DNA from: Chitinophagaceae bacterium
Lineage (GTDB): Bacteria > Bacteroidota > Bacteroidia > Chitinophagales > Chitinophagaceae
Length of the DNA stretch: 64,000 nt
NCBI GenBank assembly: GCA_023251255.1
Contig: JAHEZD010000012.1
Location: forward strand, 18,422 to 82,421
Direction: 5' to 3'
Shown: positions 17,788-54,462 of the stretch, one piece after another
How the letters are laid out: each line of letters begins with the position of its first letter
Position numbering within the stretch: the stretch's first letter is position 1
Notes under the pieces: model-generated
What the model saw: the letters and a program-made list of their open reading frames with translations, nothing else
Told to the model about the DNA's origin: nothing
The model's database searches: none
Position numbers and translations under genes: made by a program

Positions 17788-17807
17788 GAATGCAACCAGT
17801 AATTTCT

Positions 17808-18191
17808 TTACTTTATGCCAATAGGTATTACATCAATCAATTCAAGCGATTTTACCATGTGCTCAACTGTGGCTTTGTATTTTTTAAAATGGCTTGTTTG
17901 TATGTGTGCCTTATACGCATCCACATTTGCATAGGTTTCTAATATGGTTATATGGGTTAGATTATTTTTATCGTAAACGGCTGAATATGCCAATACCCCT
18001 TTTTCCTCCAATTTCAATGCTGCTTTCATCTGTTCTTTTAAAGCTATCATGTATGGTTCTAATTGCGAACTGTCAACCGTAATTTTAGCAATACGCATAT
18101 AGTTATTGAACGATTGGGCAGCCATCTTATTTGAAAACATTAATGACATCAGCAATGCAGTTATGATTGTTACGATTGATTTTGATTTCAT
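17808..18191 (-). CDS. Exported antibiotic-biosynthesis-monooxygenase (ABM) domain protein
   Basis: A 26-residue signal peptide (ends KMAAQ) precedes a ~100-residue ABM fold: IAKITVDSSQLEPYMIAL, LEEKGVLAYSAVYDK, ITILETYANVDAYKAHI and HFKKYKATVEHMV. Cytoplasmic relatives (YgiN-like quinol monooxygenases) oxidise quinols or small aromatics without cofactor; an exported version is less usual and suggests a periplasmic substrate. Gene order: 14 bp downstream of the SDR gene and followed by a strong terminator, so it ends the first unit of the cluster. Confidence 0.8.
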   Translation of the reverse strand: MKSKSIVTIITALLMSLMFSNKMAAQSFNNYMRIAKITVDSSQLEPYMIALKEQMKAALKLEEKGVLAYSAVYDKNNLTHITILETYANVDAYKAHIQTSHFKKYKATVEHMVKSLELIDVIPIGIK

Positions 18192-18205
18192 AATTGATGA
18201 TTATT

Positions 18206-18928: not shown

Positions 18929-18969
18929 TTTTTTATTTTTTGTTTATATTTTATGCATCATATTAAAAT

Positions 18970-19992: not shown

Positions 19993-20019
19993 GTTTTGAT
20001 ACAATTTGTTTTGTGCCAA

Positions 20020-22592: not shown

Positions 22593-25500
22593 TTATTGCT
22601 TCACTATTTTCACTGTTTCCTTGGTGCCATTAGTACTGGTTACTTCCAGCATATAGATGCCCGTGATCATGGTGGACATGTTGATGCTGTTGCTACCGGC
22701 GGCTGCTTTTTGCTGGGCCACTACCCTTCCCCTCAGGTCCATCATCTTCAAGGTGTAGGTGCCCGCTGCCTGTGGCAGTTCCACTTTCAGCAGGTCCTTT
22801 ACAGGATTGGGATATACCCTGATAGCTGTGGGCACTACCGTAACCGGTACCGCTACTGCCTGCTTGGTGAACACGACCTTGAACCTGCCCGCTCCCCTGG
22901 TGGCGGAGTCACTGGTATTTACCGTGAAGGCGTATTCAGGATTGCTGTTCATGAACTGGACAGTATGGGTGTACTGGTCTATCAGGTAGATGTTGGCACC
23001 TGCAAAGCCTGCATAACCGGAGAAGTTCAGTTTGAACTGGCCGTTGGCCGTACTGGCCACATTAAGCGCCACCGTATCGTTGATAAAGTTCAACGGTCTG
23101 GTGTTGATGGCCATGCCCTTGGTACCCTTGATGGATTTCAGGTTCTGGCTGCCCGTGTTCATGGATTCTATATCATCTGCATTCAACTGCTCCGTTGTGC
23201 CATTGTTGGCAAACTGCAGAATGATTTCATCTGCCTTGGCACCGCTGGCCAGTATGTACCCTATCCGCAACATATTGGGGTTGGACTGTGTCCTGAAGTA
23301 ACCGTTGTTGGCAATATTCGTTTTCTGCCCTTCATTGAAACCAAGCGTAATGTTGGCACCCGGTACGGCACCCTTAATAAAGATGGCCTGACCGTTTGCT
23401 ATCACATCGCCCTTGGTATCGTCCAGCCCCGTGTTGCCGCCCGTGAACGTACTACCGTTCCAGTAAGCATAGTTGCCCACGCTGTTCTGCGGTCCGTAAA
23501 TGGCGTAGCTGTTGCCAATGGCGGCAGGGTTATCGGCCTTCAGTTGTGCAAAGCTCACCTCACTTGGGTAAGGGTTACCGATCATCAGGTAGTTATCGTT
23601 TGCCACCGTGGCATCGCCATTATTGGTATAGGTAATATTGAAGCTGCCCATGTTCCTGTTGGCATTGCTCAATGTACCAGCAGCCATCATGACCGCATCG
23701 CTGGTGTACAGCACGGTTCCGTCCAGTAGGGAACAGCCAAGGCTGCGTGGCCCGCGGATGTTCATACGGTAGCCATTGCCCGGTGCAAGGTTCTGCGTAT
23801 TGGTACCCAGTACAGATGCCCATCTGGTACCCGTAAGCTTGCTGCCATCGTACATAAACATGGAGCCAGCATTGGTAGCCGTGGCATCAAAGCCATTGCT
23901 GTTCGGTGACAGTGCAGGGCAAACCGTTCCACCCGTACCTGCACCGGTAATATGTACCTGCTGCTGCCATGCGGCGGCAATGCTTTGGTTGAAAGGGGAA
24001 GCTACCAAGCTCCAGGTCCTGGCTGGCTTGGCCGGCACAAAACGCTGCTGCACAAAGTTGCCCGTACCATAGGTGAAAGTGCCCGCTACCGGTGCTATGC
24101 GTGCGGTAGCTGCTGCGGTGGACAGTAATATGATATTGCTATTGCCTAGGTGCAGGTTACCAGCAGTGGAGGTCAATGTGCCACTGATGCTGATGCTGCT
24201 GCCCAGTACCACACCGCCCGTGCTGTTAATGGTCACATTCTTCACAGCCGTCATGGTGCCCAAGGCAGCCGTCTGTACGGTGCTGCCGTTGAATTCCAGG
24301 CTACCGGCCGTGGCCGTGATGGAACCGCTATTGGCTATGTTGCCAGCTACTTTCAATGTACCTGTAATGGTGAGGCTGGCGCCAGTTTCTACGGTGATGT
24401 TCCTTACGGACTGTGTGCCGGTAAGTACAGGCATATTGGTGGCCGTGGCCAGGATGGTGGCATCGGAAGTACCTGTAGGTACACCATTGCACCAGTTGGA
24501 CAGATCTGTCCAAACATTGCTGCTGGTGCCTGTCCAGCTACCATTGGCTTTTACGTTCACCACTGCAGTGGCAGTGGATGAGCAGCCACCATTGCTTACG
24601 GTGTAAGTGATGGTGGCACTGCCCGCACCGGTGGCGGTAACCAGACCTGTGCTGCTGTTAATGGAGGCAACGGATGCATTGCTGCTGCTCCATGCACCAT
24701 TAGGTGTAGTGCTGCTGAGCGTATTGGTGGAACCGAAGCAGAGTACCGTATTATTGGTAATGGCTGCCACTACTGGGTAACTGTTTACGGTTACGGTAGT
24801 GCTGGCCGTATTGCTGCAGGTGCCATTACTAACGGTATAGGTAATGGTGGCCGTGCCGCCCGTTACGCCTGTTACTTCGCCCGTGCTGCTGTTAACGGTA
24901 GCTATATTGGTGGCACTGCTGCTCCATGCACCGCCAGTGGTGGTACTGGACAAAGTGGTGGCCGCTCCTGCACATACCGTAGTGGTGCCCGTAATGGCAG
25001 CAACCGTTGGCGTGGCAGGCTGTGCACTGATGGTGCCCGTGGCCGCTACTGAAATGCAGCCTGCGCCCGTTTTGGAAGTGATGCTATAGGATGCACCTGC
25101 GGCAATGCCCGTAAATACCCCGGTGGTATTGGTGTAAGTGGTGCCATCACTGCTGAACGTTAATCCTGTTAGGGACGAGGTTACACTGATGGTGGCCGTA
25201 GCCGTGGTGCAGGTGGGTTGCGCAATGCTAACAGTAGGTGCAGCGGGCGGTGCCGGTGCGCTGCTGATGGTACCCGTGGCCGCTGACGAAATACAGCCCG
25301 ATGCATTCCTGCTGGTAATGCTGTACGTACTGCCTGCGGTCAATCCTGCAAACACGCCTGTGGTATTGGTGTAGGTGCTGCCATCGCTGCTGAACGTTAG
25401 GCCCGTGGTGCCCGATATTACCGTTACCGTGGCCGTAGCCGTGGTGCAGGTAGGCTGCGTTACGCTTACCACTGGTGTAAACGGTGCACCCGGTTGTGCA

Positions 25501-28500: not shown

Positions 28501-31500
28501 GTTACCGTGGCAGTGGCACTGGCGCAGGTAGGCTGTACAATGCTTACGGTAGGTGCAGCAGGTGCGGCCTTGAAGGCGTTCACCACGATGGATGCCGATG
28601 CGGAACAGTTGCTGCTGCTGATCACTTTTACGTAATAGGTGCCGCTGGTGCTTACCGGATTGGTTACTGCTGCCGTAAGGGCCGGGTTGGAATAGTATTC
28701 AACCGTTAACCCTGTGGTGCTGCTGGTAATGCCCGTGCTCAAGTTAGCCGTGAGTGCGCCGCAAACAGGTGTTACCGCTTGTGTGGTTACCACAGGCAGG
28801 GCATTGACGGTGATGACTGCCGTGCCGCTCTGCGCTTGGGCATTGGTATTGTTGTCTGCCACACTGATCAGCGTATAGTTAAATGTACCTGCTGCACCCG
28901 TAGGTGCCGCTACCGTTACCGAACTGCCAGTAGTGGTGGTTACCGTTTGGTTGGAACCACTGTTTATTTTGTAGGTGAACGTATAAGGTGCTATGCCATT
29001 GGCCCCAGTGAACGTAACAGTAGGTGCGGTGCCGTTCAGGCACACGCCTGCTGTTCCTGCAATGGAGGCCGTAGGCTGTATGAAGGTAAAGCCTGCCAAG
29101 GAAGCGGTGATGCCTGCCTTAACCACCGATACGCTTCCAGAAGTGCCTGCTGCTACCACTGCCGTAATACTGGTAGGGGAAACTACGGTAAACGAGGTTG
29201 CCGCCGTGCCGCCGAAACTTACACTGCTTACGCCCGTGAAGTTGGTACCCGTAATGGTAACCGTTTGGCCAGCGCTGGCACTGGTGGGCAAGAAGGAAGT
29301 GATGGTTGGTTCTGCCACCACTGCTATGCTTACGGTGGTGGTGCTGGTACCGGCCGCATTGCTGGCAGTGATGCTGTAGGCCGTGGCTGCCGTTTCCACT
29401 GTTGGGGTACCGGAAATGGTACCTGTGGCACCGTCCAGGGTCAAGCCGGCAGGTAATGGCATATTGAGGTTGTAACCGGTTACCTTAATGGTACGTATCC
29501 TGTCATTGCCCAAATCTGCTACATATACATTGCCTGCATTGTCTGCCAGTATACCGGCAGGGCTGTTGAACTTGGCCGCCGCACCCGTACCGTCTGTGGT
29601 ACCTGCACTGCTGCCCGCTACAGTGGTCACAACGCCTGTGGCCGTGGCCACCTTCCTTATTTTATTGTTGTTCTGATCGGTTACGTACACATTGCCGATA
29701 CCGTCAAATGATACATCCACCGGATTGTCAAATCCAGCTGCTGTACCCGTGCCATCGGTAGCATTTGCCGTGCCGCTACCTGCCAGTGTGGTTACCACGC
29801 CTGTGCTGATCACTATTTTGCGTATCCTGTTATTGTACTGGTCTGCTATGTACAGGTTGCCGTTGCCATCGTAGGTAACGCCAGAAGGGTTGCTGAAACT
29901 GGCAGCCGTTCCCGTGCCGTTTACAAAGCTGGCACTGCTGTTGCCAGCCAAAGTGCTTACCAGACCGGAGCTGATGATTACCTTACGGATCCTGTTGTTA
30001 TTGGCATCGGCCACATATACACTGGAACCATCGGTGGCTATACCAATAGGGCTGCTGAAATTGGCGGATGTACCGCTGCCATCTGCAAAGCCATCGGTAC
30101 CGTTACCGGCCAAGGTACTTACTGCACCAGTGGCTATCACTATTTTGCGTATCCTGTTGTTCAATTGGTCAGACACATATAGGTTGCCCAATTTATCTGC
30201 CACGATACCAGTGGGATAGTTGAAGCTGGCTGCTGCGCCCGTACCATCTGCAAATGCATCGGTACCGCTACCGGCCAGTGTGCTCACTGCACCGGTACTG
30301 ATGACCACTTTCCTTATTTTATGGTTGTAGTAATCTGCTATGTACAGGTTGCCTGCCCCATCTGCTGCCACACCGTAAGGGTGGCCAAATGTAGCGGCCG
30401 TACCTGTGCCGTTTGCCGAACCATAGGTGCTGCCAGCCAATGTGGTGGTGGCACCATAGGTGGACGACGGAATGGTACCGCCCGTATTTACGGGTGACAA
30501 TGCTGCAATGGCCGTACCTGTAGTGTAGGCCTGTGGACCCGCATAGGTAATGCTCGGTGCCGTCATCATGGTAAAGCCAGCCAGAGTGGCCGTGCCGCCC
30601 GGTGTGATGACTACCACACTGCCCGATGAACCCACCCCTACCGTGGCCTTGATGCTTGTACCGGAAATAACGGTATAGGCAGCCGGTGTACCGCCAAATG
30701 TTACGGAGGTAGTACCCGTGAACCCTGTTCCGGTAATGATCACTGTTTGCCCTGCGCCTACGGAGGTTGGGGTAAAGGAAGTGATGGTGGGCACTGGAAG
30801 CACTACGCTGATGTTTACCGTAGCAGTAGACGTGCCTATATTATTGGTGGCCGTAACCGTATAGTCGGCAGCAGGTGTAACAACGGTTGGTGTACCTGTT
30901 ATGGTACCAGTGGTGCCATCAAAGCTCAAGCCTGTGGGCAATGCTGGTGTAATGCTGTAGCCCAGTAGGCTGACCTTGCGGATACGGTGGTTGCTCTGGT
31001 CGGCCACATATAAATAGCCGTCCCCGCCCAATGCTACACTGTAGGGATTGTTAAAAGAAGCGGTAGCAGCAGCGCCGTCCACAAAAGTAGCATTGCCATT
31101 ACCTGCTACCGTGGTTACTGCGCCCGTTGAAATCACTATTTTGCGGATGCGGTGGTTGTTCTGGTCTGCCACATACAAATTGCCCGACCCATCTGCTGTT
31201 ATGCCTGCCGGATTGTAGAAACTGGCAGCCGTGCCCGTTCCGTCTGCAAAGCTTGCATTGCCACTACCTGCCACGGTAGTTACCGTACCGGTACTGATAA
31301 CAATCTTCCTGATACGCTGGTAGCTCTGCTCCGTTACGTATACATTGCCTCCATCATAGGCTATGCCCATTGGGCTGCTGAAACCTGTTGAAAAGGTAGT
31401 TACGGCACCTGTGGCTATTGCTACCTTGCGTATGCTGCCATTGCTCTGATCGGCTGCATACAGGTTGCCAGAACCGTCATAAGCAATGCCCTGTAGGCCA

Positions 31501-37500: not shown

Positions 37501-40500
37501 AAAGTAGCTGCAGTACCTGTTCCGTCCACAGAAGTACTTGAACCACTGCCGGCCAATGTAGTTACCGCACCCGTGGAAATAACCACTTTGCGGATACGGT
37601 TATTGCTGTAATCTGCTACATATAAATTGGTGCCATCTATGGCTACACCGGAAGGGAAATTGAAGTAAGCAGCAGTACCTGTACCGTCCTGGAAGGCGGC
37701 ACTGCCCTGACCGGCCAAGGCAGTTACCGCACCAGTGGAAATAACCACTTTGCGGATACGGTTATTGCTGGCATCTGCCACGTATAAATTGGTACCGTCC
37801 GATACGATGCCCTTGGGCTGGTTAAAGTAAGCAGCCGCACCTGTACCGTCCTGGAAAGCGGCACTGCCCTGACCAGCCAATGTGCTTACTGTACCCAAAC
37901 TGATAGCTGGTACCGCTGAACCCGTATTGGTGGGTGTCAATGCAGTGATGGCCGTACCAATGGTATAGGTTTGTGCTGTAGTATAACTGATGACCGGAGG
38001 TGACGACAGCGTAAAGCCTGCCAATGTAGCCGTACCGCCCAAAGTGGTAACGCTTACACTGCCGGATGTACCTGCGCCTACCGTAGCGGTAATGCTGGCA
38101 GTACTGTTCACCACAAAGTTGATAGCAGCCGTGCCGCCAAAGCTTACTGCGGTAACTGCGCTGAAATTGGTACCTGTAATGGTTACGTTCTGTGAGGCTC
38201 CTGCACTTGTGGGCGTGAAGGAGGTAACAGTAGGTGCAGCAGGCACTATTGCTATGCTTACCGTAGTGCTGTTGGAACCAACACTATTAGCAGCGGTAAC
38301 CGTAAATATTTTCGCTATGCTGCCCGTAGTGGGCGTACCACTGAAAGTACCAGTGGTGGCATCAAAACTTAAACCCGCAGGTAAAGTGGTGGGGCTGATA
38401 CTATAACCTACCAATCCTATTTTGCGGATGCGGTGGTTATTCTGATCGGCCACATACAAGTAACCGGTACCGTCCACTGCTACACCATACGGATTGTTGA
38501 AAGAAGCGGTAGTGGCTGCACCGTCCACAAAAGTGGCCGTGCCGCTACCTGCTTGTGTAGTTACTACGCCTGTATTGATGACTATCTTACGGATGCGGTT
38601 ATTGTTCATGTCGGCCAAATACAAATTGCCCGAACCGTCTGCCACAATTCCCGTTGGGTTGTAAAAGTTGGCTGCCGTACCTGTGCCATCTACAAAGCTT
38701 GCCGTGCCGCTGCCTGCCAGGGTGGTTACTGCGCCGGTACTGATTACTATTTTGCGGATTCTTTGGTTGCCCTGATCTGCTACATATAAATTGCCCCCAT
38801 CGTAAGCAATACCTGTTGGGTTATAGAAAGTAGCAGCAGTGCCGATTCCATCGGCAAAACTTGTACTGCCATTGCCTGCCACGGTGGTTACCGTGCCTGT
38901 GGCAATGACTATTTTACGGATGCGCTGGTTGGTCTGGTCGGCCACATACAGGTTGCCTGCACCATCATAGGTGATGCCCTGCAGTCCATAGAATGAGGCA
39001 CTTGTACCCGTACCATCATTGCTGCCCGGATTAACAGCACCTGCCAATGTGGTTACCACAGCAGTGGAAAGCACAATCTTCCTGATGGTGCAATAACTGT
39101 AACTGCCCTGGGTCACATATAGGTTACCTGCACCATCTAGCGCCAATGAATGCGGGTAATAGAAATAGGCACTGGCACCGGTGCCGTCCTGGTTACCGCT
39201 ATTGCCTGCACTGCCAGCCAATGTGGTGGTTACGCCTGTAGCTATGACTATCTTACGGATGGTATGGTTGTTATAATCTGCCACATATACATTGGTACCG
39301 TCTGATACCACACCCTGTGGACTGTAGAAACTGGCCCCTGTGCCTGTGCCATTGCCGGAGCTTGCACTACCGCTACCAGCCAAAGTACTTACAACACCCA
39401 AGGTAGCCACCGGTACCGTGCCGCCTGTATTGGTGGGTACCAAAGCAGTGATGGCTGTACTTACAGGATAACTTTGCGGTGTGGCATAACTGATAGCTGG
39501 TGCCAATAATAAGGTAAACCCTGCCAAGGTAGCTGTGCCACCAGTGGTGGTAACTGCCACACTACCTGTGGCACCTGCACCTAATATGGCAGTAATGGAA
39601 GTAGGGGAAACAACATTATAAGATGCCACTGCAATGCCGCCAACAGTTACACCTGTAACTGCGGCAAAGTTGGTACCTGTAATGGTAATGGACTGGCCCG
39701 CACCAACTGAGGTTGGTGTAAAGGATGTGATAGTGGGTGCAAGTGGTGTAACGGCAATACTGATGCTTGTAGTACTGGTACCGATACTGTTCACTGCTTT
39801 TACTGTGTAGCTAGTAGCTAACTGTCCCAATGTGGGCGTACCACTGATCGTACCCGTAGTACCATCAAAGCTCAAACCTGCTGGCAAGGTGGTGGGGCTG
39901 ATGCTGTAACCTACCAGTCCTACCTTGCGGATCCGCTGGTTGCCCTGATCGGCCACGTACAAATAACCGGCTCCATCCAATGCCACACCATAGGGACTGG
40001 AGAATGAAGCTGCAGCAGCGGCACCATCTGCAAATGCATTTGTGCCATTGCCTGCCAAAGTGCTCACTGCACCCGATGCAACCACTATTTTGCGGATTCT
40101 CTGGTTGTTCATGTCTGCTATGTACAGGTTGCCCGAACCGTCGGCCACAATACCTGCGGGGCTATAAAAATTGGCCGCAGTGCCCGTACCATCGGCAAAG
40201 CTTGCACTGCCACTGCCCGCTAACGTAGTTACCACATTGGTGGACACCACTATTTTGCGGATGCGGTGGTTGTTCTGGTCGGCCACATACAGGTTGCCCC
40301 CATCATAGGTAATACCTGTTGGACTATAGAAATAGGCAGCCGTGCCTGTGCCATCACCAAAAGTTGCATTACCGTTACCGGCTATAGTGGTTACCGTACC
40401 TGTGGCTATGACTATTTTGCGGATGCGGTGGTTGTTCTGGTCGGCCACGTACAGATTGCCTGCACCGTCATACGTAATGCCCTGCGGAGCATAGAAAGAG

Positions 40501-43500
40501 GCGCTGCCGCCCGTGCCGTCACCATAGGAAGGATAGTAACTGCCGCCTGCCAGGGTGGTTACCGCGCCCGTGGCTATCACTATCTTGCGTACTGCGCAAT
40601 AGTAATAGTCACCTTGGGTAACATATAAATTACCTGCACCGTCCAGTGCCAGGCTATGTGGATTATAGAAATACGCATTGGTGCCCGTGCCATCCTGATT
40701 GGAAGCAGTACCTGCACTGCCTGCCAACGTAGTGGTAACACCAGTAGCAATGACTATTTTACGGATGACCTGGTTATTGTAATCTGCCACGTACACGTTG
40801 GTACCGTCGGAAACCACTCCCTGTGGATTGTTGAAATAGGCCGATGTGCCCGTACCGTTCTGGAAGCTTTGGCTGCTGCTGCCTGCCAATGTGCTTACCG
40901 TACCGTAACTAACTGCTGGCACTATACCACCAGTATTGGTAGGAGCCAAAGCGGTAATGGCCGTACCTGCTAAATAAGTTTGCGGGGTAACATAACTGAT
41001 GTTTGGCGCTGTGAGCATGGTAAAGCCGGCCAAGGTAGCCGTGCCGCCTGCTGTGGTTACTACCACGCTGCCATCTGCACCAGCGCCCACAATAGCTGTA
41101 ATGCTTGTGGTGGAGTTCACCGTATAGGAAACGGCTGCCGTGCCACCGAAGCTCACAGCAGTTACCAATGAAAAGTTGGTACCTGTTATGGTAACGGTCT
41201 GGTTAGGGCCTACCGATACGGGTGAGAAAGAGGTAATGGTGGGCGTTGCGGGTGTTACCGCAATGCTTACCGTGGTGGTACTTGCGCCAACGCTGTTCAC
41301 ACCTGTAATGGTATAGACAGTAGCTGCTGAGCCTACTGTTGGTGTACCGGAAATAATACCGGTAGCGATATCAAAGCTTAAGCCTGCTGGCAATGTTGGG
41401 GTAATGGTATAACCTGCCAAACCTATTTGGCGTATACGCTGGTTACTTTGATCCGCTACATACAAGTAGCCTGCCCCATCTACTGCTACTCCATAAGGAT
41501 TATTGAATGAGGCAGTGGTAGCTGTACCATCCACAAAAGTAGCGGTACCGTTACCGGACAATGTGGTTACTGCACCTGATGAAACCGCTATTTTACGTAT
41601 ACGGTGATTGCTTTGGTCAGCCACATACAAACTGCCCGAACCATCTGCCACTATGCCTGCTGGGTTATTGAAGCTGGCTGCTGCACCTGTGCCATCTACA
41701 AAGGTGGCATTACTGTTGCCTGCCAGTGTAGTTACAACGCTTGTGCCCACTACAATCTTGCGGATACGCTGATTGTTCTGATCGGCCACATACAGGTTGC
41801 CTGCATCATAGGCAATGCCTATTGGGCTGTTGAATAAAGTAGACGTACCGGTGCCATCAATGAAACCGGAACTATTGGTAGTGCCTGCTATAGTAGATAC
41901 CGTACCGGAGCTGATAACGATTTTGCGGATGGTATGATTGTTCTTATCTACCACATATAAATTGCCTGCACCATCATAGGTAATGCCCTGAGGTGAATAG
42001 AAAGAAGCATTGGTGCCCGTACCGTTCTGACTGCCCGGGTAATAATTACCGCCTGCCAATGTGGTTACCGCACCTGTGGCAATCACTATTTTGCGTACAG
42101 CACAATAGTAGTAGTCACCTTGGGTAACGTATAAATTGCCTGCGCCATCCAAGGCTAGTGAATGCGGACTATAGAAATAGGCATTGGTGCCCGTGCCATC
42201 CTGCTGCGAGGCATTCCCTGCACTGCCCGCCAATGTGGTGGTAACACCAGTAGCTATCACTATTTTCCTGATGATATGGTTATTGTAATCTGCCACGTAT
42301 ACATTGGTGCCATCCGATACCACGCCTTGCGGGCTGCTAAAAGTGGCAGCCGTACCCGTGCCGTTACTGGAACCCGAATTGCCGCTACCGGCCAAAGTGC
42401 TTACCGTACCAAGTGAGGCTGCGGATATGGCACCGCCCGTATTGGTGGGTGCCAGTGGCGTAATGGCTGTATTGCCCAAGTAGGTTTGTGGACCTGCATA
42501 GGCTATAACAGGTGCTGTTAATAAAGTGAAGCCTGCCAAGGTGCCTGTGCCGCCAGTGGTGGTTACCGATACACTACCAGTGGTTCCAGTGGCAACGACT
42601 GCCGTGATACTGGTAGCGGAAACCACATTAAATGAAGTGGCCGCTGTACCGCCAAAGCTTACTGCAGTTACCGTGGAAAAGTTGGTACCTGTTATGGTAA
42701 CCGTTCTGCCCGCGCCTCCTGCTGTTGGCGTAAAGGAAGTAACGGTAGGTGCAGCAGGAATCACTTCTATGTTTACCACTGTTGTGCTGCTGCCAACACC
42801 ATTGGCTGCTGTAACAGTATAGTTGGCTGCCAGTGTACCAACGGTTGGTGTGCCACTAATGACACCTGTGGTGCCATCAAAACTCAGGCCTGCTGGCAAT
42901 GCTGGACTAATGCTGTAACCTACCAAACCAATCTTGCGTATACGGTTATTACCTTGATCGGCTACGTACAAATAGCCTGACCCATCCACTGCTACACTGT
43001 AAGGATTGTAAAAAGAAGCGGTAGCTGCGGTACCATCTGCGAAAGTAGCAGTGCCATTGCCAGCTAATGTGGTTACCACACCTGATGAAATGACAATTTT
43101 ACGTATACGTTGATTACTTTGATCTGCCACATATAAATTGCCCGAACCATCTGCCACAATACCTGATGGGCTGTTAAAACTGGCTGCAGCACCTGTGCCG
43201 TTCGCAAAAGCGGCATTACCATTACCGGCTATGGTAGACACCACGCCGGTAGCAATCACTATTTTGCGGATACGTTGGTTGTTCTGGTCGGCTACATATA
43301 AATTACCCCCATCGTAGCTAATGCCCGATGGCGTGGAGAAAGACGATGATGTACCGGTACCGTCTGCAAAAGCGGAACTTCCACTACCCGCTACTGTTGA
43401 AACAGCACCCGTAGCAATGACTATTTTACGGATGCGGTTATTGCTCCTGTCTGCCACATACAAATTGCCTGCACCATCATAGGTAATACCCTGAGGGCCA

Positions 43501-46500
43501 TAGAAGTAAGCATTGGGGCCCGTGCCATCCTGATAGGTGGGATAGTAATTGCCACCTGCCAAGGTGGTTACCGCGCCCGTGGCAATCACTATTTTGCGTA
43601 CAGCGCAATAGTAGTAGTCACCTTGGGTAACATATAAATTACCTGTGCCATCCAGTGCCAGTGCATGCGGGTTATAAAAATAGGCATTGGTGCCCGTGCC
43701 ATCCTGCTGTGAAGCAGTACCCGCATTACCTGCCAACGTGGTGGTAACACCTGTAGCAATGACTATTTTACGGATGACATGGTTATTGTAATCTGCCACA
43801 TAGATATTGGTGCCATCGGATACTACCCCTTGAGGGTTGTTGAAATAGGCCGATGTGCCCGTACCGTTCTGGAAGCTTTGGTTGCTGCCTGCCAATGTGC
43901 TTACTGCACCATAATTCACTGCTGGTACCGCACCACCTGTATTGGTGGGCGACAGTGCAGTGATAGCAGATCCCGTAACTGTATAGGATTGGGGTGTTGT
44001 ATAGGTTATTGCAGGTGGAATCAGGAAGGTAAAGCCAGCCAAGGTGGCTGTGCCCAACACCGTGGTAACAGTTACGCTACCTGTGGTGCCTGCGGCTACC
44101 GTTGCAGAAATAAGGGTTTCCGAAAGCACAGTATAAGAAGTGGCGGGTGTACCACCAAAGCCCACACCTGTTACTGCGGAGAAATTGGTACCTGCTATCA
44201 ATACGGTTTGCCCTGCACCTGCACTGGTTGGCGAAAAGGAGCCAATGGCAGGTAGACCTGCATTGACAGTAATGTTAATGGTAGCGGAAACGCTGCCCGC
44301 ATTGTTATTGGCGGTAACCGTATATGTTGTGGCAACGGAGGTAACCGCAGGTGTGCCGCTGATGATACCTGTGGTGCCATCAAAACTCAACCCTGCAGGT
44401 AATGCCGGGCTAATGGAATAGCCCACGATGCCCACCTTACGGATACGCTGGTTACCTTGGTCTGCTATATATAAATTACCTGCACCATCTACAGCCACAC
44501 CAACCGGACTGTTGAAAGTAGCAGTGCTGGCATCACCATCTGCAAAAGTGGTACTGCCTGTTCCTACAAAACTGGTTACTTCCGAGGTAGACAAAACAAT
44601 CTTGCGTATGCGCTGGTTGTTCTGGTCCGCCACGTATAAATTATTGGCACCATCAAACACTACTCCAACAGGTCCACTAAATGTAGCGGATGTACCTGTG
44701 CCATTGTTACTGCCACCATTGCCATTGCCCGCCACCGTAGTTACCACGCCTGTAGCAATGACTATTTTACGTATGCGGTTATTGTTCTGGTCGGCCACGT
44801 ACAAATTGCCCAGCCCATCGGTAGTGATGCCCATGGGCGAATTGAAGCTGGCTGCTGTACCTGTGCCATCGGCAAAAGTACCGCTGCCACTACCTGCAAG
44901 AATGGTTACATCACCAGTGGACAGTACCATTTTGCTTACATAGTTATTGTACTGACTGGTGAAATACAGGTTACCGCCATCGTACACGATTCCGGTAGGG
45001 TAACCAATGCTGGCGCTGGTACCGTTGCCATTTGCTGTATTGCTATTGCCATTTCCTGCAATGGTGGTAACCACACCTGTGGCTATCACTATTTTACGGA
45101 TACGGTTATTGCTAAAATCTGCTACGTATAAATTGCCTGCACCATCCAGTGCGAGTGCCCTGGGGTTGTTGAAGTAGGCCGATGTTCCCGTGCCATCTCC
45201 AAAAGCATTGTATCCCTGGCCTGCCAATGTGGTTACCACGCCTGTGGCTATTATTATTTTACGGATGCGGTGGTTGGATTGGTCTGCCACATAGAGGTTA
45301 GTGCCGTCCGACACCATGCCGTATGGATTATAGAAATTGGCTGCTGTGCCTGTACCGTCCTGGAAGCTGGCTGTTCCGTTACCTGCTAGGGTACTCACCG
45401 TACCATATACTACTGCTGGCACGGCTCCGCCCGTATTGGTGGGCGTTAATGCTGTAATAGCAGTTCCGGAAGTATAGGTTTGGGGTGTGGCATAACTGAT
45501 GGCCGGTAATATGAAGATGGTCCTGGCACTTTGTACGGCTGAGTAAATGCCCTGCCCTGCAACTGAAGTCTTGTTGGCCCTAACCCGGTAATAATAGGTA
45601 ACGCCACTGGATAGCCCAGTAATGGACTGTGAAGTACCCGTTACGGACAGTGCATTGTAACCCGTGAGGATGGACGCACCAAAAGTGGAGCTCGTAGCCA
45701 CATCCAATAAATAATTGGTAGCGGTACCAATGGTAGGGGCATTCCAATTAGCGGTGAAGCTGGTAGAAGCCACGTTGGTAGCAGCAGTGGTTACTGCTGT
45801 TACCATGGCATAACTTTCTACCCAGTTGGAAACATTATTGGCCAGGTCAAAACCGTGCAATGTTCCTGTATTGGCATTGCTGGTACGGTCGGTCAGGGTA
45901 TTGATACCGGTATTTACATCACCTGCCGTTCCCTGTTCAAAACTATAGTAAGCTACCAAATTGGGGTTGGACAATGGGTTGATGGTATTGGCCATATCGG
46001 CTGCTACCTGTGCGGTCCTGTCCGTTTTGAATATCCGCAGTTCATCCATGGAAAAGTTGGCCAATGTGCTGAAGTCCGATGTGCCGCCAATGGTAATGGC
46101 ACCGGTACTGTAGTCCAGTGCAAACCCTGTGGACGCAGTTTGCTGCAGCACACCATTTACATATAAGGAAACACTGGTAGAAGTAAACATGGCTGCTACA
46201 TGGTACCATGTACCTGCACTGTAGGCTGCCAATTGCGTTGCCTTGGCCTGCGTGCCCGATCCGGAAGAGGCTGCGGCAGAAAACTTCCCATTGTCCAAGT
46301 AAATGGAGTAGGATTCATTATTGGACACCCCTGCTCCCCTACTGTTCAATTTCAGTACAATAGGTATGCTGCCCGTGGTGGTCAAGGGTCTCACCCAAGC
46401 TTCTACCGTAGCGGTTGCAGGTTTTAAACTGGTGGCATCCGGTATGGTTACATAGTCTTTTGTACCATCAAAGTTCAGGGCATTGCCCTGCGCATTTGAT

Positions 46501-46577
46501 GCAACATTAACAGTAACCAAAGCCAGTAAAACAAAAAGCAAGCGGGAAAAACCTGCAAAGGGTAAGAATGATCTCAT
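22593..46577 (-). CDS. Giant T9SS-exported repeat protein, 7,994 aa (LamG, FN3, 66 NHL blades, TIG, Cys repeats)
   Basis: One uninterrupted frame of 23,985 bp encodes a ~0.8 MDa surface or released protein. Order: signal peptide (1-30), LamG domain (about 31-245; NALNFDGTKDYV, VEAWVRP), FN3-like domain (about 250-350), eleven ~500-residue modules (353-5833) each of six NHL blades, a putative-Ig segment (PAGLSFD.TTG.ISGTPT) and an IPT/TIG domain (AGQTVTITGTNF), two SprB-like Ig segments (5834-6000), fifteen ~79-residue repeats starting PTVSVTQPTC (6000-7186), two BIG2-like domains (to 7330), a T9SS-associated region, and a type A sorting domain (from YPNP near 7916; ends ETVKIVKQ). No catalytic motif is seen; propellers and LamG suggest ligand or glycan binding, so adhesion or gliding is plausible. 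Codon use is uniform, GC is higher than in the flanks. A LytTR regulator gene is divergent 202 bp away. Modular recombination is evident. Confidence 0.93.
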   Translation of the reverse strand: MRSFLPFAGFSRLLFVLLALVTVNVASNAQGNALNFDGTKDYVTIPDATSLKPATATVEAWVRPLTTTGSIPIVLKLNSRGAGVSNNESYSIYLDNGKFSAAASSGSGTQAKATQLAAYSAGTWYHVAAMFTSTSVSLYVNGVLQQTASTGFALDYSTGAITIGGTSDFSTLANFSMDELRIFKTDRTAQVAADMANTINPLSNPNLVAYYSFEQGTAGDVNTGINTLTDRTSNANTGTLHGFDLANNVSNWVESYAMVTAVTTAATNVASTSFTANWNAPTIGTATNYLLDVATSSTFGASILTGYNALSVTGTSQSITGLSSGVTYYYRVRANKTSVAGQGIYSAVQSARTIFILPAISYATPQTYTSGTAITALTPTNTGGAVPAVVYGTVSTLAGNGTASFQDGTGTAANFYNPYGMVSDGTNLYVADQSNHRIRKIIIATGVVTTLAGQGYNAFGDGTGTSAYFNNPRALALDGAGNLYVADFSNNRIRKIVIATGVVTTIAGNGNSNTANGNGTSASIGYPTGIVYDGGNLYFTSQYNNYVSKMVLSTGDVTILAGSGSGTFADGTGTAASFNSPMGITTDGLGNLYVADQNNNRIRKIVIATGVVTTVAGNGNGGSNNGTGTSATFSGPVGVVFDGANNLYVADQNNQRIRKIVLSTSEVTSFVGTGSTTFADGDASTATFNSPVGVAVDGAGNLYIADQGNQRIRKVGIVGYSISPALPAGLSFDGTTGIISGTPAVTSVATTYTVTANNNAGSVSATINITVNAGLPAIGSFSPTSAGAGQTVLIAGTNFSAVTGVGFGGTPATSYTVLSETLISATVAAGTTGSVTVTTVLGTATLAGFTFLIPPAITYTTPQSYTVTGSAITALSPTNTGGAVPAVNYGAVSTLAGSNQSFQNGTGTSAYFNNPQGVVSDGTNIYVADYNNHVIRKIVIATGVTTTLAGNAGTASQQDGTGTNAYFYNPHALALDGTGNLYVTQGDYYYCAVRKIVIATGAVTTLAGGNYYPTYQDGTGPNAYFYGPQGITYDGAGNLYVADRSNNRIRKIVIATGAVSTVAGSGSSAFADGTGTSSSFSTPSGISYDGGNLYVADQNNQRIRKIVIATGVVSTIAGNGNAAFANGTGAAASFNSPSGIVADGSGNLYVADQSNQRIRKIVISSGVVTTLAGNGTATFADGTAATASFYNPYSVAVDGSGYLYVADQGNNRIRKIGLVGYSISPALPAGLSFDGTTGVISGTPTVGTLAANYTVTAANGVGSSTTVVNIEVIPAAPTVTSFTPTAGGAGRTVTITGTNFSTVTAVSFGGTAATSFNVVSATSITAVVATGTTGSVSVTTTGGTGTLAGFTLLTAPVIAYAGPQTYLGNTAITPLAPTNTGGAISAASLGTVSTLAGSGNSGSSNGTGTAATFSSPQGVVSDGTNVYVADYNNHIIRKIVIATGVTTTLAGSAGNASQQDGTGTNAYFYSPHSLALDGAGNLYVTQGDYYYCAVRKIVIATGAVTTLAGGNYYPGSQNGTGTNASFYSPQGITYDGAGNLYVVDKNNHTIRKIVISSGTVSTIAGTTNSSGFIDGTGTSTLFNSPIGIAYDAGNLYVADQNNQRIRKIVVGTSVVTTLAGNSNATFVDGTGAAASFNNPAGIVADGSGSLYVADQSNHRIRKIAVSSGAVTTLSGNGTATFVDGTATTASFNNPYGVAVDGAGYLYVADQSNQRIRQIGLAGYTITPTLPAGLSFDIATGIISGTPTVGSAATVYTITGVNSVGASTTTVSIAVTPATPTITSFSPVSVGPNQTVTITGTNFSLVTAVSFGGTAAVSYTVNSTTSITAIVGAGADGSVVVTTAGGTATLAGFTMLTAPNISYVTPQTYLAGTAITALAPTNTGGIVPAVSYGTVSTLAGSSSQSFQNGTGTSAYFNNPQGVVSDGTNVYVADYNNQVIRKIVIATGVTTTLAGSAGTASNQDGTGTNAYFYNPHSLALDGAGNLYVTQGDYYYCAVRKIVIATGAVTTLAGGSYYPSYGDGTGGSASFYAPQGITYDGAGNLYVADQNNHRIRKIVIATGTVTTIAGNGNATFGDGTGTAAYFYSPTGITYDGGNLYVADQNNHRIRKIVVSTNVVTTLAGSGSASFADGTGTAANFYSPAGIVADGSGNLYIADMNNQRIRKIVVASGAVSTLAGNGTNAFADGAAAAASFSSPYGVALDGAGYLYVADQGNQRIRKVGLVGYSISPTTLPAGLSFDGTTGTISGTPTLGQLATSYTVKAVNSIGTSTTSISIAVTPLAPTITSFTPTSVGAGQSITITGTNFAAVTGVTVGGIAVASYNVVSPTSITAILGAGATGSVAVTTTGGTATLAGFTLLLAPAISYATPQSYPVSTAITALVPTNTGGTVPVATLGVVSTLAGSGSASSGNGTGTGASFYSPQGVVSDGTNVYVADYNNHTIRKIVIATGVTTTLAGSAGNSGNQDGTGASAYFYYPHSLALDGAGNLYVTQGSYSYCTIRKIVLSTAVVTTLAGAVNPGSNDGTGTSASFYGLQGITYDGAGNLYVADQTNQRIRKIVIATGTVTTVAGNGSTSFADGIGTAATFYNPTGIAYDGGNLYVADQGNQRIRKIVISTGAVTTLAGSGTASFVDGTGTAANFYNPTGIVADGSGNLYLADMNNNRIRKIVINTGVVTTQAGSGTATFVDGAATTASFNNPYGVAVDGTGYLYVADQNNHRIRKIGLVGYSISPTTLPAGLSFDATTGTFSGTPTTGSIAKIFTVTAANSVGSNSTTVSIAIVPAAPTVTSFTPTSAGASQNVTITGTNFSAVTAVSFGGTAAINFVVNSTASITATVGAGTSGSVSVTTLGGTATLAGFTLSSPPVISYTTAQTYTIGTAITALTPTNTGSAVPAISLGTVSTLAGQGSAAFQDGTGAAAYFNQPKGIVSDGTNLYVADASNNRIRKVVISTGAVTALAGQGSAAFQDGTGTAAYFNFPSGVAIDGTNLYVADYSNNRIRKVVISTGAVTTLAGSGSSTSVDGTGTAATFYNPSGIVADGAGNLYVTDYGSSRIRKIVISTGVVTTVAGTGSAAFADGTGTAAAFSNPRAITYDGAGNLYVADGGNNRIRKIVVATGAVTTLAGSSSGYADGTGTAALFSNPISIAYDGMGNVYVGDNNRIRKIVVATAVVTTLAGNGTATFVDGVPTTASFYNPYGLATDVAGYLYVGDGNNNRIRKVGVYGYGITPALPAGLSISGSTGTISGTPTVGSLATSYTVSASNSAGTGTATQSIAVTAAVPTITSFSPTSAGAGQTVTITGTNFNAVSSVAFGGTAATSFTVVSATSITAVVAAGTTGSITVVNNGGTATLAGFTFLLPPAFTYAGPQSYSAGTAITSLAPTTTGGAIPVATPGVVTTLAGSGAQTFGDGTGTSASFNNPSGMASDGANLYLADYGNHRIRKIVIATGVVTTLAGNGSAGFQDGTGTSASFYYPRSVALDGAGNLYVADGNNNRIRKIVVATGLVTTLAGNGSAAFADGTGTGASFNNPYGIVGDGAGNLYVTDYQNHRIRKIVIATGVVTTVAGSGTAAFADGTGTAANFYNPAGITYDAGNIYITDFNNNRIRKIVASTGVVTTIAGNATAAFADGTGTAASFYNPTGVASDGVGNLYVADNSNQRIRKVVLATGDVTTFAGSGSGTFTDGTGTAASFNAPNGMVMDAGNLYIGDFYNNRIRKINVTGYSISGILPAGLSFSATTGTISGTPTTGALAATYTITGTNAAGAATATVSITVVPATPTIASFTPTSAGAGQTVTITGTNFYTVSSVTFGGTAAASYTVNSGTSITAVIAAGTTGSVSVTTTGGTATLAGYTFLIAPSITYATPQTYTAGTAITDLAPTNTGGAVSAVAAGVVTTLAGSSQSFQDGTGTSAYFNNPQGVVSDGTNVYVADYSNHVIRKIVIATGVTTTLAGSAGNASNQDGTGTNAYFYYPHALALDGAGNLYVTQGDYYYCSVRKIVIATGAVTTLAGGSFYPGSQDGTGSNAYFYIPQGITYDGAGNLYVADQNNHRIRKIVIATGTVTTIAGNGNAGFGDGTGTAAYFYSPMGITYDGGSLYVADQNNHRIRKIVIATSVVTTLAGSGSANFADGTGSAANFYSPTGIVADGSGSLYVADLNNQRIRKVVISTGTVTTLAGNGTGAFVDGTATTASFNGPFGVAIDGAGYLYVADQYNNRIRKIGLGGYTITPTLPAGLSFSNLTGVISGTPTTGTLGANYTVTAINSVGTGTATVNITVIPQTPTVTSFTPTSAGAGQTVTITGTNFSTVTGVSFGGTAATSYTVVSPTSITAVVASGTTGSVAVTTTGGTATLAGFTLLLPPAFTYAGPQTYPAGTAIAALAPISTGGAVPAITLGAVSTLAGSSQSFQNGTGTSAYFNSPQGVVSDGTNVYVADYNNQVIRKIVIATGVTTTLAGSAGSASLQDGTGTNAYFYNPHSLALDGAGNLYVTQGDYYYCAVRKIVIATGAVTTLAGGSYYPSYGDGTGGSASFYAPQGITYDGAGNLYVADQNNHRIRKIVISTGAVTTVAGNGSSSFGDGTGTNATFFSPTGIAYDGGNLYVADQNNHRIRKIVASTNVVTTLAGSGSASFADGTGTAANFYAPTGIVADGLGNLYIADLNNQRIRKIVIASGAVSTLAGNGTNAFADGAAAAASFSSPYGVAVDGAGYLYVADQGNQRIRKIGLVGYSISPTTLPAGLSFDGTTGTFSGTPTTGSLATVYTVTGTSTVGTGTATVSIAVTPAAPTITSFTPTSAGAAQTVTITGTNFYAVTAVTFGGTAAASYTVNSGTSITAIIGAGATGSVTVTTSGGTATLAGFTLLLAPAITYTTPQVYTTNTAIAALTPTNTGGSVPAINLGVVSTLAGSGNASSTNGNGTAASFYNPQGVVSDGTNVYVADYNNHIIRKIVIATGVTTTLAGSAGTASQQDGTGTNAYFYYPHGLALDGAGNLYVTQGNGYYQSYFAIRKVVIATGVVTTLAGGNYYPGSNDGTGSNASFYGLQGIAYDGSGNLYAADQSNGSIRKVAIATGAVTTFSTGFSSPMGIAYDGGNVYVTEQSYQRIRKIVISTGTVTTVAGSGNASFADGTGTAASFYNPAGITADGSGNLYVADQNNHRIRKIVISTGAVTTVAGNGNATFVDGAAATASFNNPYSVALGGDGYLYVADQSNHRIRKVSLLGYSITPALPTGLSFDGTTGTITGTPTVVTPAADYTVTATNNIGTSTATVNISVVLPVPTITSFTPTSVGAGQTVIITGTGFTGTTSVTFGGTPAAYTVISGTSIKATVGVGSSGSVVVITPGGTATLAGFTMMTAPSITYAGPQAYTTGTAIAALSPVNTGGTIPSSTYGATTTLAGSTYGSANGTGTAATFGHPYGVAADGAGNLYIADYYNHKIRKVVISTGAVSTLAGSGTDAFADGTGAAASFNYPTGIVADKLGNLYVSDQLNNRIRKIVIATGAVSTLAGNGTDGFADGSGTSANFSSPIGIATDGSSVYVADANNNRIRKVIISSGLVSTLAGNSSASFVNGTGTAASFSNPSGVTYDGNGNLYIADQYNNRIRKIVISTGVVTTLAGSGTANATDGTGTAAGFDNPVDVSFDGIGNVYVTDQNNNKIRKVATATGVVTTVAGSSAGTTDGTGAAAKFNSPAGILADNAGNVYVADLGNDRIRTIKVTGYNLNMPLPAGLTLDGATGTISGTPTVETAATAYSITASNAAGTSTTTVSIAVVAEPTITSFLPTSASAGQTVTITGTNFTGVSSVSFGGTAATSFTVVSPTSITAVVAAGTSGSVSVVKAGITASLAGFTFIQPTASIAGTAGVCLNGTAPTVTFTGANGIAPYTFTYKINSGSNQTVTTTTGSSVTVAAPTGAAGTFNYTLISVADNNTNAQAQSGTAVITVNALPVVTTQAVTPVCGALTANLSTGITSSTTGLTVEYYSNPALTAAVTNPVSTSGTYYVKVISSSNCSASASIVVNAFKAAPAAPTVSIVQPTCASATATVTVTSATAGLTFSSDGTMYTNTTGVFTVAAGTAYSITARNSDGCVSSAAAGTVNAQPPTPSTPTVTVTQPTCAVATASIKVVSTGASSYSLVIDGTTFTNATGIFNNIAAGAAYSVTTTSAAGCTSATATGTVDVQPATPAAPTVSVTQPTCAVATATVTVTSSLTGLTFSNDGTTYTNTTGIFTVAAGTTFGITARNASGCISVAATGSINAQPATPAVPTVSVTQPTCGTATATITVTSSLTGLTFSNDGTTYTNTTGVFTAAAGSAYSITAKTTAGCISAAATGTVNAQPTVPAVPTVSVTQPTCSTATATVTVTSSLTGLTFSSDGTTYTNTTGVFTVAAGAAYSITAKSVAGCISAAATGTVNVQPLAPGTPSVNVTQPTCAVATASMTVTSTGATSFTLVSDGTTFINSTGVFSNLAAGSAYSVTTTNSGGCVSTATTGTINAQPATPAVPTVSVTQPTCATATATVTVTSSLTGFTFSNDGTTYTNTTGIFTGIAAGSIYSITAKNASGCISAAVTGSINAQPATPTAPTVSVTQPTCSTATATVTVTSALTGLTFSSDGTTYTNTTGIFTGLAAGSSYSITARNASGCISTAATGSINAQPATPTVPTVSVTQPTCTVATATVTVTSSTTGLTFSKDGTDYSNTTGVFPGIAAGSSYSITAKNASGCISTAATGTVNAQPAAPAAPTVSIAQPTCATATATVTVTSSLTGFTFSNDGTTYTNTTGIFTGMAAGSTYSITAKNTAGCISIAATGTINAQPSTPAAPTVSVTQPTCGLATATVTVTSALTGFTFSSDGTTYTNTTGVFAGLAAGSSYSITARNASGCISTAATGTVNAQPVTPVTPAVSIVQPTCTTATASITVTSAGAASFTLVSNGTTFINSTGVFANLAAGSAYSVTTTSSAGCVSAAVSGTIDAQPAVPAVPTVNVTQPTCATATATITVTSTITGLTFSSDGSTYTNTTGVFSNIAAGTSYSITAKNASGCVSTAATGTINAQPGAPFTPVVSVTQPTCTTATATVTVISGTTGLTFSSDGSTYTNTTGVFAGLTAGSTYSITSRNASGCISSAATGTISSAPAPPAAPTVSIAQPTCTTATATISVTSSLTGLTFSSDGTTYTNTTGVFTGIAAGASYSITSKTGAGCISVAATGTISAQPATPTVAAITGTTTVCAGAATTLSSTTTGGAWSSSATNIATVNSSTGEVTGVTGGTATITYTVSNGTCSNTASTTVTVNSYPVVAAITNNTVLCFGSTNTLSSTTPNGAWSSSNASVASINSSTGLVTATGAGSATITYTVSNGGCSSTATAVVNVKANGSWTGTSSNVWTDLSNWCNGVPTGTSDATILATATNMPVLTGTQSVRNITVETGASLTITGTLKVAGNIANSGSITATAGSLEFNGSTVQTAALGTMTAVKNVTINSTGGVVLGSSISISGTLTSTAGNLHLGNSNIILLSTAAATARIAPVAGTFTYGTGNFVQQRFVPAKPARTWSLVASPFNQSIAAAWQQQVHITGAGTGGTVCPALSPNSNGFDATATNAGSMFMYDGSKLTGTRWASVLGTNTQNLAPGNGYRMNIRGPRSLGCSLLDGTVLYTSDAVMMAAGTLSNANRNMGSFNITYTNNGDATVANDNYLMIGNPYPSEVSFAQLKADNPAAIGNSYAIYGPQNSVGNYAYWNGSTFTGGNTGLDDTKGDVIANGQAIFIKGAVPGANITLGFNEGQKTNIANNGYFRTQSNPNMLRIGYILASGAKADEIILQFANNGTTEQLNADDIESMNTGSQNLKSIKGTKGMAINTRPLNFINDTVALNVASTANGQFKLNFSGYAGFAGANIYLIDQYTHTVQFMNSNPEYAFTVNTSDSATRGAGRFKVVFTKQAVAVPVTVVPTAIRVYPNPVKDLLKVELPQAAGTYTLKMMDLRGRVVAQQKAAAGSNSINMSTMITGIYMLEVTSTNGTKETVKIVKQ
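25020..28580 (-). repeat. Fifteen tandem ~237-bp repeats in the giant gene
   Basis: Each ~79-residue unit runs PTVSVTQPTC.TATATVTVTS..TGLTFS.DGT.YTNTTGVF...YSIT...GC.S.A.TGT..AQP. Two cysteines (in QPTC and in GCxS) are kept in essentially every unit, suggesting one disulfide per domain. Three units (numbers 2, 6 and 12 from the N-terminus) use a variant core with TSFTLVSDGTTFINSTG. The repeat is coding and is not a CRISPR array. Confidence 0.92.
29080..45520 (-). repeat. Eleven tandem ~1.5-kb modules (NHL propeller + Ig + TIG)
   Basis: Module starts, from the N-terminus, are near 45510, 44022, 42522, 41015, 39506, 38005, 36516, 35032, 33530, 32030 and 30565; spacing is 1,465-1,509 bp. Each begins with P.ISY.TPQTY..GTAITAL.PTNTGG, has six NHL blades (D..GNLYVADQ.N.RIRKIV), and ends with a TIG domain. 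Seven modules (2, 3, 4, 5, 8, 9, 10) carry a modified second blade with TQGDYYYC or a variant; four (1, 6, 7, 11) do not. Confidence 0.92.
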
Positions 46578-46728
46578 AAAGTGTTCAGTAAAGAGTTAAT
46601 CGAAAAAGCAAGGGTGCTTTGGGTGAAGATGCCAACCAAACAAGCAGCGGGGAAACTTAATTGATGAACAGGCCATGCCAGTAGATAACAGCTCCATTTG
46701 GGTAGACGTAAAAAACGTGGCCAACTGA

Positions 46729-46762
46729 TTTGCCTCCAATAACCACCCAACCTATATATTTA
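46729..46762 (+). promoter_or_regulatory. Candidate promoter of the LytTR regulator
   Basis: TTTG at 46729-46732 and TATATTTA at 46755-46762 resemble the Bacteroidota -33/-7 pair, with a 22-bp spacer (19-21 is usual) and one mismatch in the -7 box. The predicted leader before the ATG at 46780 would be about 11 nt. No promoter for the leftward giant gene was recognised in this 202-bp gap. Confidence 0.35.
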
Positions 46763-46779
46763 CAAAAATCCAGTGCGGT

Positions 46780-47553
46780 ATGTACAAATGTGTGGTCATA
46801 GACGATAACATGATAGAAAGGGATGCGATGCTAATGCACCTGTCCAGATTGAAAAACATTAAGGTAATAGCAGAGTGTGCCGATGGCCTATCTGCTTTGG
46901 ATGTGCTGAAGGAACAGAAGGTGGACATTGTTTTTTCGGATATTGACATGCCCGAACTAACAGGCATTGGCCTGCTCAAAAGCCTGAAGAACCCTCCTGT
47001 GTTTATCTTCATCAGCTCTTACAGCGAGTATGCGGTGGAAAGCTTCCACCTGGACGTGATAGACTATATTGTAAAACCGGCCAGTTTTGAAAGGTTGCTG
47101 AAAGCCATAAACAAGGCCATTGAATACATTGAGCTCAAGAAAAAAGCCAATACACCTGCCTCTGTAACGGAAAGCATTGCTTCTACTGAACCCTTTGTGA
47201 GAACGGTAAATGCCGAGGAGTATTTCTATATCAAGGAAACCTCAGGCCATACCAAATTGCAGATGGCCGATGTGCTGTTTGTGGAAAGCATGGGCGACTT
47301 CTCCAAGTTCCACACCATACAGGGCCAGAAACATATTGTGCTCATCAGCTTGAAGAACATCGAAAAACAGCTCCCTAACAAAATATTCAAGCGCGTGCAC
47401 AAACAGTATATCATTAACCTGCTGCATATTGTATCCATAGCTCCAGCAGACATTATCCTTACCAATCTCCATACTGTTCCCCTCAGCAATGCCTACCGGC
47501 AGGACCTGCTGGAAACAGCAGTGGACAGTAAGACCCTGAAGCGTTTTGGCTGA
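46780..47553 (+). CDS. LytTR-family response regulator
   Basis: The 257-residue protein has an N-terminal receiver domain (about 3-118) with the acidic pair DD (8-9), phospho-acceptor Asp54 (VFSDIDMPEL), Ser in ISSYSEYA and Lys in IVKPASFERLL. A linker leads to a C-terminal LytTR DNA-binding domain (about 145-250; DVLFVESMGDFSKFHT, FKRVHKQYIINL). LytTR regulators normally pair with a kinase of the neighbouring gene, but the next gene downstream is a hybrid regulator with its own receiver and HTH. The only unpaired kinase in the window is at 1511. The gene is divergent from the giant surface-protein gene and is its best candidate regulator. Confidence 0.92.
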   Translation: MYKCVVIDDNMIERDAMLMHLSRLKNIKVIAECADGLSALDVLKEQKVDIVFSDIDMPELTGIGLLKSLKNPPVFIFISSYSEYAVESFHLDVIDYIVKPASFERLLKAINKAIEYIELKKKANTPASVTESIASTEPFVRTVNAEEYFYIKETSGHTKLQMADVLFVESMGDFSKFHTIQGQKHIVLISLKNIEKQLPNKIFKRVHKQYIINLLHIVSIAPADIILTNLHTVPLSNAYRQDLLETAVDSKTLKRFG

Positions 47554-54457: not shown

Positions 54458-54462
54458 AGCAT

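Follow-up and report, generated by a model that had tools for sequence, protein, structure and literature searches.

The stretch of DNA analysed here (the window, 64,000 nucleotides) carries on its minus strand, at positions 22593-46577, an open reading frame of 23,985 bp which begins with ATG and encodes a protein of 7,994 amino acids; its 7,994 codons are free of stops and frameshifts, and stops are present on the plus strand of the same interval. The coordinates and both lengths are exactly those of the initial annotation, which did not give the strand. In a Pfam search the protein matched NHL, TEN_NHL, He_PIG, TIG, Laminin_G_3 and fn3 above cut-off, and Por_Secre_tail at its C-terminal end, with NHL scores of up to 436 bits per piece of 2,000 residues; the ScyF model (NF035926) reached at most 266.7 bits per piece, under its curated cut-off of 350. 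Both the NHL and the TIG similarity on which the initial annotation depended were thus found, and its account of a LamG/FN3 N-terminus, of TIG and Ig modules, and of a T9SS tail is confirmed by Pfam and NCBIfam. From the N- to the C-terminus the order is LamG, FN3, eleven propeller units, 15 repeats that each contain two Cys, and finally the T9SS type A tail. The features are as follows (all on the minus strand):

22593..46577 (-): whole gene, 7,994 aa (open frame and translation)
46491..46577 (-): predicted signal peptide, residues 1-29, with Gln as predicted first mature residue (by eye)
46008..46469 (-): LamG-like domain (Laminin_G_3), residues 37-190 (Pfam, 93.6 bits)
45567..45782 (-): FN3 domain, residues 266-337 (Pfam, 26.6 bits, cut-off 25)
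44013..45503 (-): unit 1, consisting of half-Ig A, six NHL blades, half-Ig B and TIG
42510..44012 (-): unit 2, Tyr-rich loop type
41004..42509 (-): unit 3, also of the Tyr-rich loop type
39498..41003 (-): unit 4, Tyr-rich loop type; folded by AlphaFold2
40596..40616 (-): Tyr-rich loop of blade 2 in unit 4, as an example, residues 1988-1994
37995..39497 (-): unit 5, Tyr-rich loop type without the second Tyr motif
36513..37994 (-): unit 6
35025..36512 (-): unit 7
33525..35024 (-): unit 8, Tyr-rich loop type
32022..33524 (-): unit 9, also with the Tyr-rich loop; nearest to unit 4 (87% amino acid identity, dS 0.47)
30555..32021 (-): unit 10, Tyr-rich loop type; loop longer, one blade short
29064..30554 (-): unit 11, which diverges most
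28560..29063 (-): two Ig/PKD-like domains, residues 5839-6006 (Pfam below cut-off; Ig_7 20.2 bits, cut-off 27.3)
25005..28559 (-): 15 beta-sandwich repeats, each with two Cys and 78-80 aa long, residues 6007-7191
24552..25004 (-): two Ig-like domains (Ig_NUP210_16th / Big_2), residues 7192-7342 (Pfam; limits by eye)
22818..24551 (-): C-terminal region ahead of the sorting signal, residues 7343-7920
22596..22817 (-): T9SS type A sorting domain, residues 7921-7994 (TIGR04183)

Cleavage of the signal peptide is predicted before Gln, in agreement with the Q-rule of Bacteroidetes as outlined in PMC10653852. The 15 Cys-paired repeats that had been claimed are real, as there are 15 PTC motifs spaced 78-80 residues apart and two Cys in each repeat. 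For a piece of 333 residues in the C-terminal region (23200-24200) Pfam gave no match at E<=1.

The giant gene is flanked on one side by a LytTR response regulator, a hybrid two-component regulator (HTCS) with a propeller of its own, and genes for GH28, GH92 and GH2 enzymes. Over 47728-63777 the hybrid regulator is followed by GH28, GH92, GH28, GH92-like (by eye) and GH2, a content that would fit a pectin-type degradation cluster; a SusC/SusD pair was not noticed beside it. The link between the giant gene and this polysaccharide cluster is weak, because the adjoining regulator genes are not conserved beside the relatives of the giant gene. The LytTR gene gave only distant matches in the vicinity of the relatives of the giant gene, and a regulatory link through it was dropped. 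Neither promoters nor terminators were detected in scans of 46540-46800. GC at fourfold sites is 0.50 in the giant gene, near that of the flanking sugar-enzyme genes (0.45-0.50), and on this ground a horizontal origin judged by composition was rejected; the high overall GC of the gene is due to its amino acids. The window also contains a paralogue of 754 residues (2721-4985, plus strand), in which a single split-Ig propeller comes before a LamG-FN3 part, the opposite order to that of the giant protein, with 44% identity to the latter over the 340 residues of LamG-FN3; a T9SS tail was not found in it. The paralogue shares 8 bp with the end of a histidine kinase gene (1499-2728, plus strand), and may therefore be co-expressed with this sensor kinase. 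Fourfold-site GC is 0.67-0.68 in the kinase-paralogue pair, 0.61-0.67 in the regulators beyond the giant gene, and 0.22-0.46 in seven genes sampled on both strands of 5008-20019, a region that is perhaps a later insertion splitting one locus.

The number of blades was determined with a profile built from the giant protein's own blades, which found exactly 66 NHL blades, six in each of eleven propellers; splitting the sequence with a regular expression gave 69 pieces, three of which are due to spurious cuts, and thus also 11 x 6. Both counts in the initial annotation are therefore correct. Each unit consists of a half-Ig A of about 33 residues, six blades (about 330 residues), a half-Ig B of about 57 residues, and a TIG domain of about 80 residues, with half A ahead of the propeller and half B behind it in all eleven units. 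While an Ig domain had been described as following each propeller, this holds only for most of the domain: the first third precedes the propeller, and the Ig is split around it. He_PIG matches start only at profile positions 29-35, at the end of the propeller; when the two halves were joined by hand, the start moved to positions 8-9. In none of the four units tested did joining improve the score (49.0, 42.9, 37.0 and 44.5 bits joined, versus 50.3, 43.5, 38.1 and 45.4 bits for half B alone). With the joined halves as query, uninterrupted Ig domains were found in 8 out of the 58 related genomes; the matches are stronger in six (G032, G042, G024, G046, G010 and G019; 42.9-77.9 bits, 45-63% identity) and weak in two (G023 and G006). 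Since uninterrupted homologues exist and the order of half A, six blades and half B is constant, the propeller looks to be an insertion that separates the third from the fourth strand of an Ig domain, a reading that draws on these two observations and not on the Pfam score. An AlphaFold2 model of one unit (56 aligned sequences; mean pLDDT 95.8, pTM 0.87) has strands in both halves, at about residues 2-3, 8-11 and 19-23 in half A and at 365-369 and 409-419 in half B, and we infer that half A is paired with half B in space. The propeller of the model matches solved NHL propellers with Z up to 46.6; these matches (VIA-align and Foldseek) mainly span residues 30-368 of the unit model, with families for the flanking domains still possible.

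The units are 57-87% identical to each other in protein and 59-85% in DNA. In all 54 of the 55 unit pairs for which the values could be computed dN is smaller than dS (median dS 1.65, mean dN 0.26; these NG86 estimates are rough, as dS is near saturation), and purifying selection between units is supported. The earlier argument that the lack of stops in such repetitive DNA points to selection thus acquires a firmer basis. In a tree with 45 homologous units from 17 other loci the eleven units form one clade (support 99/88, with the bootstrap flagged as not fully settled), and 48 of the 66 blades are most similar to the blade at the equal position of another unit. It follows from the dN/dS values, the identity range, the single clade and the position-matched blades that whole six-blade units were multiplied long ago within this lineage and then retained by selection.

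The propellers had been proposed to present many identical binding sites along a fibre. This is too strong for units that differ at 13-43% of positions; what stands is that the one candidate site that was found is common to seven of them. Propellers normally have their b-c and d-a loops on the same face. In seven of the eleven units the b-c loop of the second blade is rich in Tyr, and in six of these the d-a loop that comes next also contains Tyr/Phe-Tyr-Pro; the patch is absent from the other four propellers, and none of the 45 homologous units compared, from other Bacteroidota proteins with serial propellers in Ig domains, has two or more aromatics in this loop. As the seven units form one clade (support 100/99), their sequences suggest that the Tyr-rich candidate site was gained once and then multiplied. 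Where the loops are identical (five units), synonymous differences occur in 18 of 70 codon pairs, a modest number, and the sameness of the loops may reflect selection plus, for part of it, partial gene conversion. Six of the propellers carry a lone Cys in the Tyr-rich loop (residues 991, 1492, 1994, 2496, 3986 and 4486, within 33525-43625), which is unusual for an exported protein; a cross-link or a metal site is possible.

Export is predicted to proceed through the T9SS, with the giant protein as a type A cargo. The TIGR04183 tail scores 49.4 bits (53.8 bits when the last 120 residues are searched alone; cut-off 23), and the type B model TIGR04131 was not reported for it at E<=0.01. The genome encodes a SprA-type translocon gene (SprA_N, 516 bits), three PorV-family genes over cut-off, and, adjoining one of these, a gene with a PorU-type sortase match of 78.6 bits, below the cut-off of 420; 123 type A (Por_Secre_tail) matches and 38 type B tails were counted in it.

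In order to find out how far this layout extends, we refer to a scan of GTDB genomes in which 585 stretches matched the search pattern and 518 encoded relatives, of which the best 80 were kept, giving 78 loci. These contain 58 units running from half A to half B, of which 48 have six blades, 7 have five, 1 has four and 2 have twelve, with the proviso that the counts use profiles from the giant protein and blades may be missed. The 48 six-bladed units sit in 17 loci, all from Bacteroidota as judged by their titles. As to complete frames, Mucilaginibacter pedocola has one of 6,163 residues with 12 units, M. glaciei one of 4,373 residues with 8 units, and Chitinophaga alhagiae two of 1,415 and 1,408 residues with 3 units each. 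The three species share with the giant protein the repetition of half-Ig A, usually six NHL blades, and half-Ig B, and a T9SS tail; M. pedocola differs in its 12 units, in a type B tail, and in that TIG was not detected, and M. glaciei in having TIG in only 4 of its 8 units. The Cys repeats and the LamG-FN3 part were not found by phmmer in the Bacteroidota loci compared at that stage. In Ignavibacteria and Kapabacteria (L120, L121 and L123) proteins of 5,500-6,000 residues contain six or seven propellers of six blades each, which alternate with TIG, and the one tail tested is of type A; they differ in that half-Ig flanks were not detected and in that they have runs of TIG domains on the C-terminal side. 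All eight C-terminal ends of relatives that were tested score over the T9SS cut-off, five as type A and three as type B. Among the proteins examined, the giant protein is the longest with serial NHL propellers, and M. pedocola has more units.

The modelled unit was also compared to known structures. The Bacteroides TIG-NHL 'auxiliary nutrient binding proteins' (PDB 3tc9 and 4hw6) and 3hrp have the NHL fold (Z 32.1, 31.6 and 36.4) and match in sequence, but their chains are some 400-430 residues long, contain one propeller match each, and lack serial units. Teneurin and teneurin-like NHL domains are likewise similar (Pfam TEN_NHL matches; 9ifo, Z 39.2), but Pfam reported neither a Rhs/YD shell nor a toxin part in the giant protein. 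Serial propellers nested in Ig domains were not described in the literature that was searched, which included few subscription papers and no preprints. The initial statement that no characterised system has this architecture agrees with that search; the layout is not unique, however, as it recurs in 17 Bacteroidota loci and reaches 12 units in the M. pedocola protein, and by sequence it is a recurrent class. Propellers, TIG domains, Ig stalks and giant T9SS adhesins are all known; serial propellers in Ig domains are present in the databases and apparently undescribed. Of nine genomes from the same genus four (G002, G004, G005 and G006) match one unit and, among the matches listed, G005 and G006 have it in frames of 540 residues. 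In an even draw of 395 genomes from the phylum, of which at most 3 candidates per genome were scored in a first look, 201 match the unit profile, many through TIG only, so that this figure is not a count of serial propellers.

These results can be interpreted in terms of a secreted, surface-anchored fibre, a fibrillar adhesin or a device for glycan capture, in which the propellers would be lateral pendants; judged from sequence and models, we put the chances of this reading slightly above even. The chain of Ig and TIG domains would form a continuous load-bearing rod and the propellers would hang off its side. Because both ends of each propeller return to one Ig, a pull along the fibre should bypass the propellers, which on grounds of geometry only could still bind while the fibre is under load. 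In this picture the cell-proximal stalk would consist of the C-terminal Cys repeats, and the LamG/FN3 end would be the distal tip, with PorU/PorV-type processing fixing the protein to the surface. The Tyr-rich patch on seven propellers could hold a sugar chain and so provide many weak contacts, the target being possibly a plant-type polysaccharide, because the neighbouring cluster encodes GH28, GH92 and GH2 enzymes. Long stalk proteins with TIG stalks are described as typical of fibrillar adhesins in PMC9210967; the length, the TIG stalks and the sorting tail of such proteins are all present here, and the adhesive activity is putative.

According to another hypothesis, the protein is a structural coat or a biofilm-matrix component, in which the propellers are no more than stable spacers or make protein-protein contacts, without a specific ligand. 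Its composition (low charge, rich in Thr, Ala, Gly and Ser), the divergence of the units, with no site common to all eleven, and the arrangement of the same modules in other orders in the Ignavibacteria relatives would all suit such a role; this tenet is challenged by the Tyr patch, which apparently arose once and was retained in seven units, and by the LamG domain, which has a lectin-type fold, and we regard it as unlikely. Alternatively, the protein could be a SprB-like adhesin driven across the surface by the gliding motor. In favour of this, the genome that encodes the giant T9SS cargo also has SprA and 38 type B tails, and three of the eight relatives tested have type B signals at their ends. 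However, the giant protein's own tail is of type A, a class thought in the account of PMC11205867 to be anchored via PorV/PorU rather than PorP/SprF, and no SprB repeat model was reported at E<=0.01; we consider gliding improbable.

A comparison with GhpA, which forms the grappling hooks of Aureispira (PDB 9flp and seven more entries), raises the further possibility of a prey- or cell-catching fibre, a T9SS-exported hook that grips other cells. Like the giant protein, GhpA is a giant Bacteroidota T9SS protein with beta-sandwich stalk domains, and grappling hooks are described as heptamers of a T9SS-secreted protein (PMC11205867). Two consecutive Cys repeats are modelled as beta-sandwiches (mean pLDDT 93.1; 77.3-93.1 over five models), whose best matches among solved structures are fragments of GhpA: Foldseek places them first to seventh and ninth (E 3.7e-7 to 6.5e-6), and they make up five of the VIA-align top six (Z 9.4 to 8.3). 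In sequence, too, GhpA is matched by the C-terminal 2,156 residues, at E 6.1e-20. That last match is heavily composition-biased (its best stretch has 37.3 bits after a bias of 106.5), the Z values barely exceed those of unrelated FN3/Ig tandems (7.4-8.6), and GhpA was matched at E<=1 neither by seven Cys repeats alone nor by a profile of 14 repeat pairs; it is also absent among the best 60 of 65 matches of the NHL unit profile. GhpA differs further in its 5,898 residues and its heptameric state, without a clear sequence relation over the Cys repeats. Since the repeat-only sequence searches failed, kinship with GhpA through these repeats was rejected, leaving an analogy of design only, and we see only a slim chance that the giant protein acts as a hook of this kind.

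Finally, the quality of the assembly is also a matter of concern, as the source genome is a draft of 188 contigs, the gene is repetitive, and the count of eleven units is that of this assembly. The longest exact repeat inside the giant gene is of 86 bp, and exact repeats of at least 40 bp form 12 pairs, so that ordinary short reads could resolve it. This, together with the smaller dN in 54 of 54 computable unit pairs, makes an assembly artefact unlikely; the DNA identity of 59-85% between units, with synonymous sites saturated, the uninterrupted frame, and the occurrence of a matching layout in unrelated assemblies leave very little room for units that were joined or multiplied wrongly in assembly or annotation.

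Returning to the surface fibre with pendant propellers, its broadest version would be a widespread and as yet undescribed class of T9SS fibres, with one propeller nested per Ig as an off-load pendant, in which a patch invented once and now present in seven copies makes a multivalent glycan-binding cable; we propose this tentatively, and regard it as rather doubtful in its entirety. If the pendant reading is right, the giant adhesins known from bacteria would gain a recurrent architecture, and nesting each binding domain in a load-bearing Ig would let a fibre carry many of them serially without their being pulled apart. Mucilaginibacter, Ignavibacteria and Kapabacteria deserve attention in this respect, as such genes are expanded there and, according to the literature search, unstudied. 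The genome of M. pedocola contains further long multi-propeller frames, of 4,274 and 2,918 residues, and the unit profile is matched 170, 177 and 186 times in three Ignavibacteria/Kapabacteria genomes (G451, G449 and G450), in which NHL-TIG proteins are greatly expanded. A different giant protein, encoded by an open frame of 7,930 residues with at least 4 NHL-like blades, is found in a genome of the same order (L100, G043:C5).
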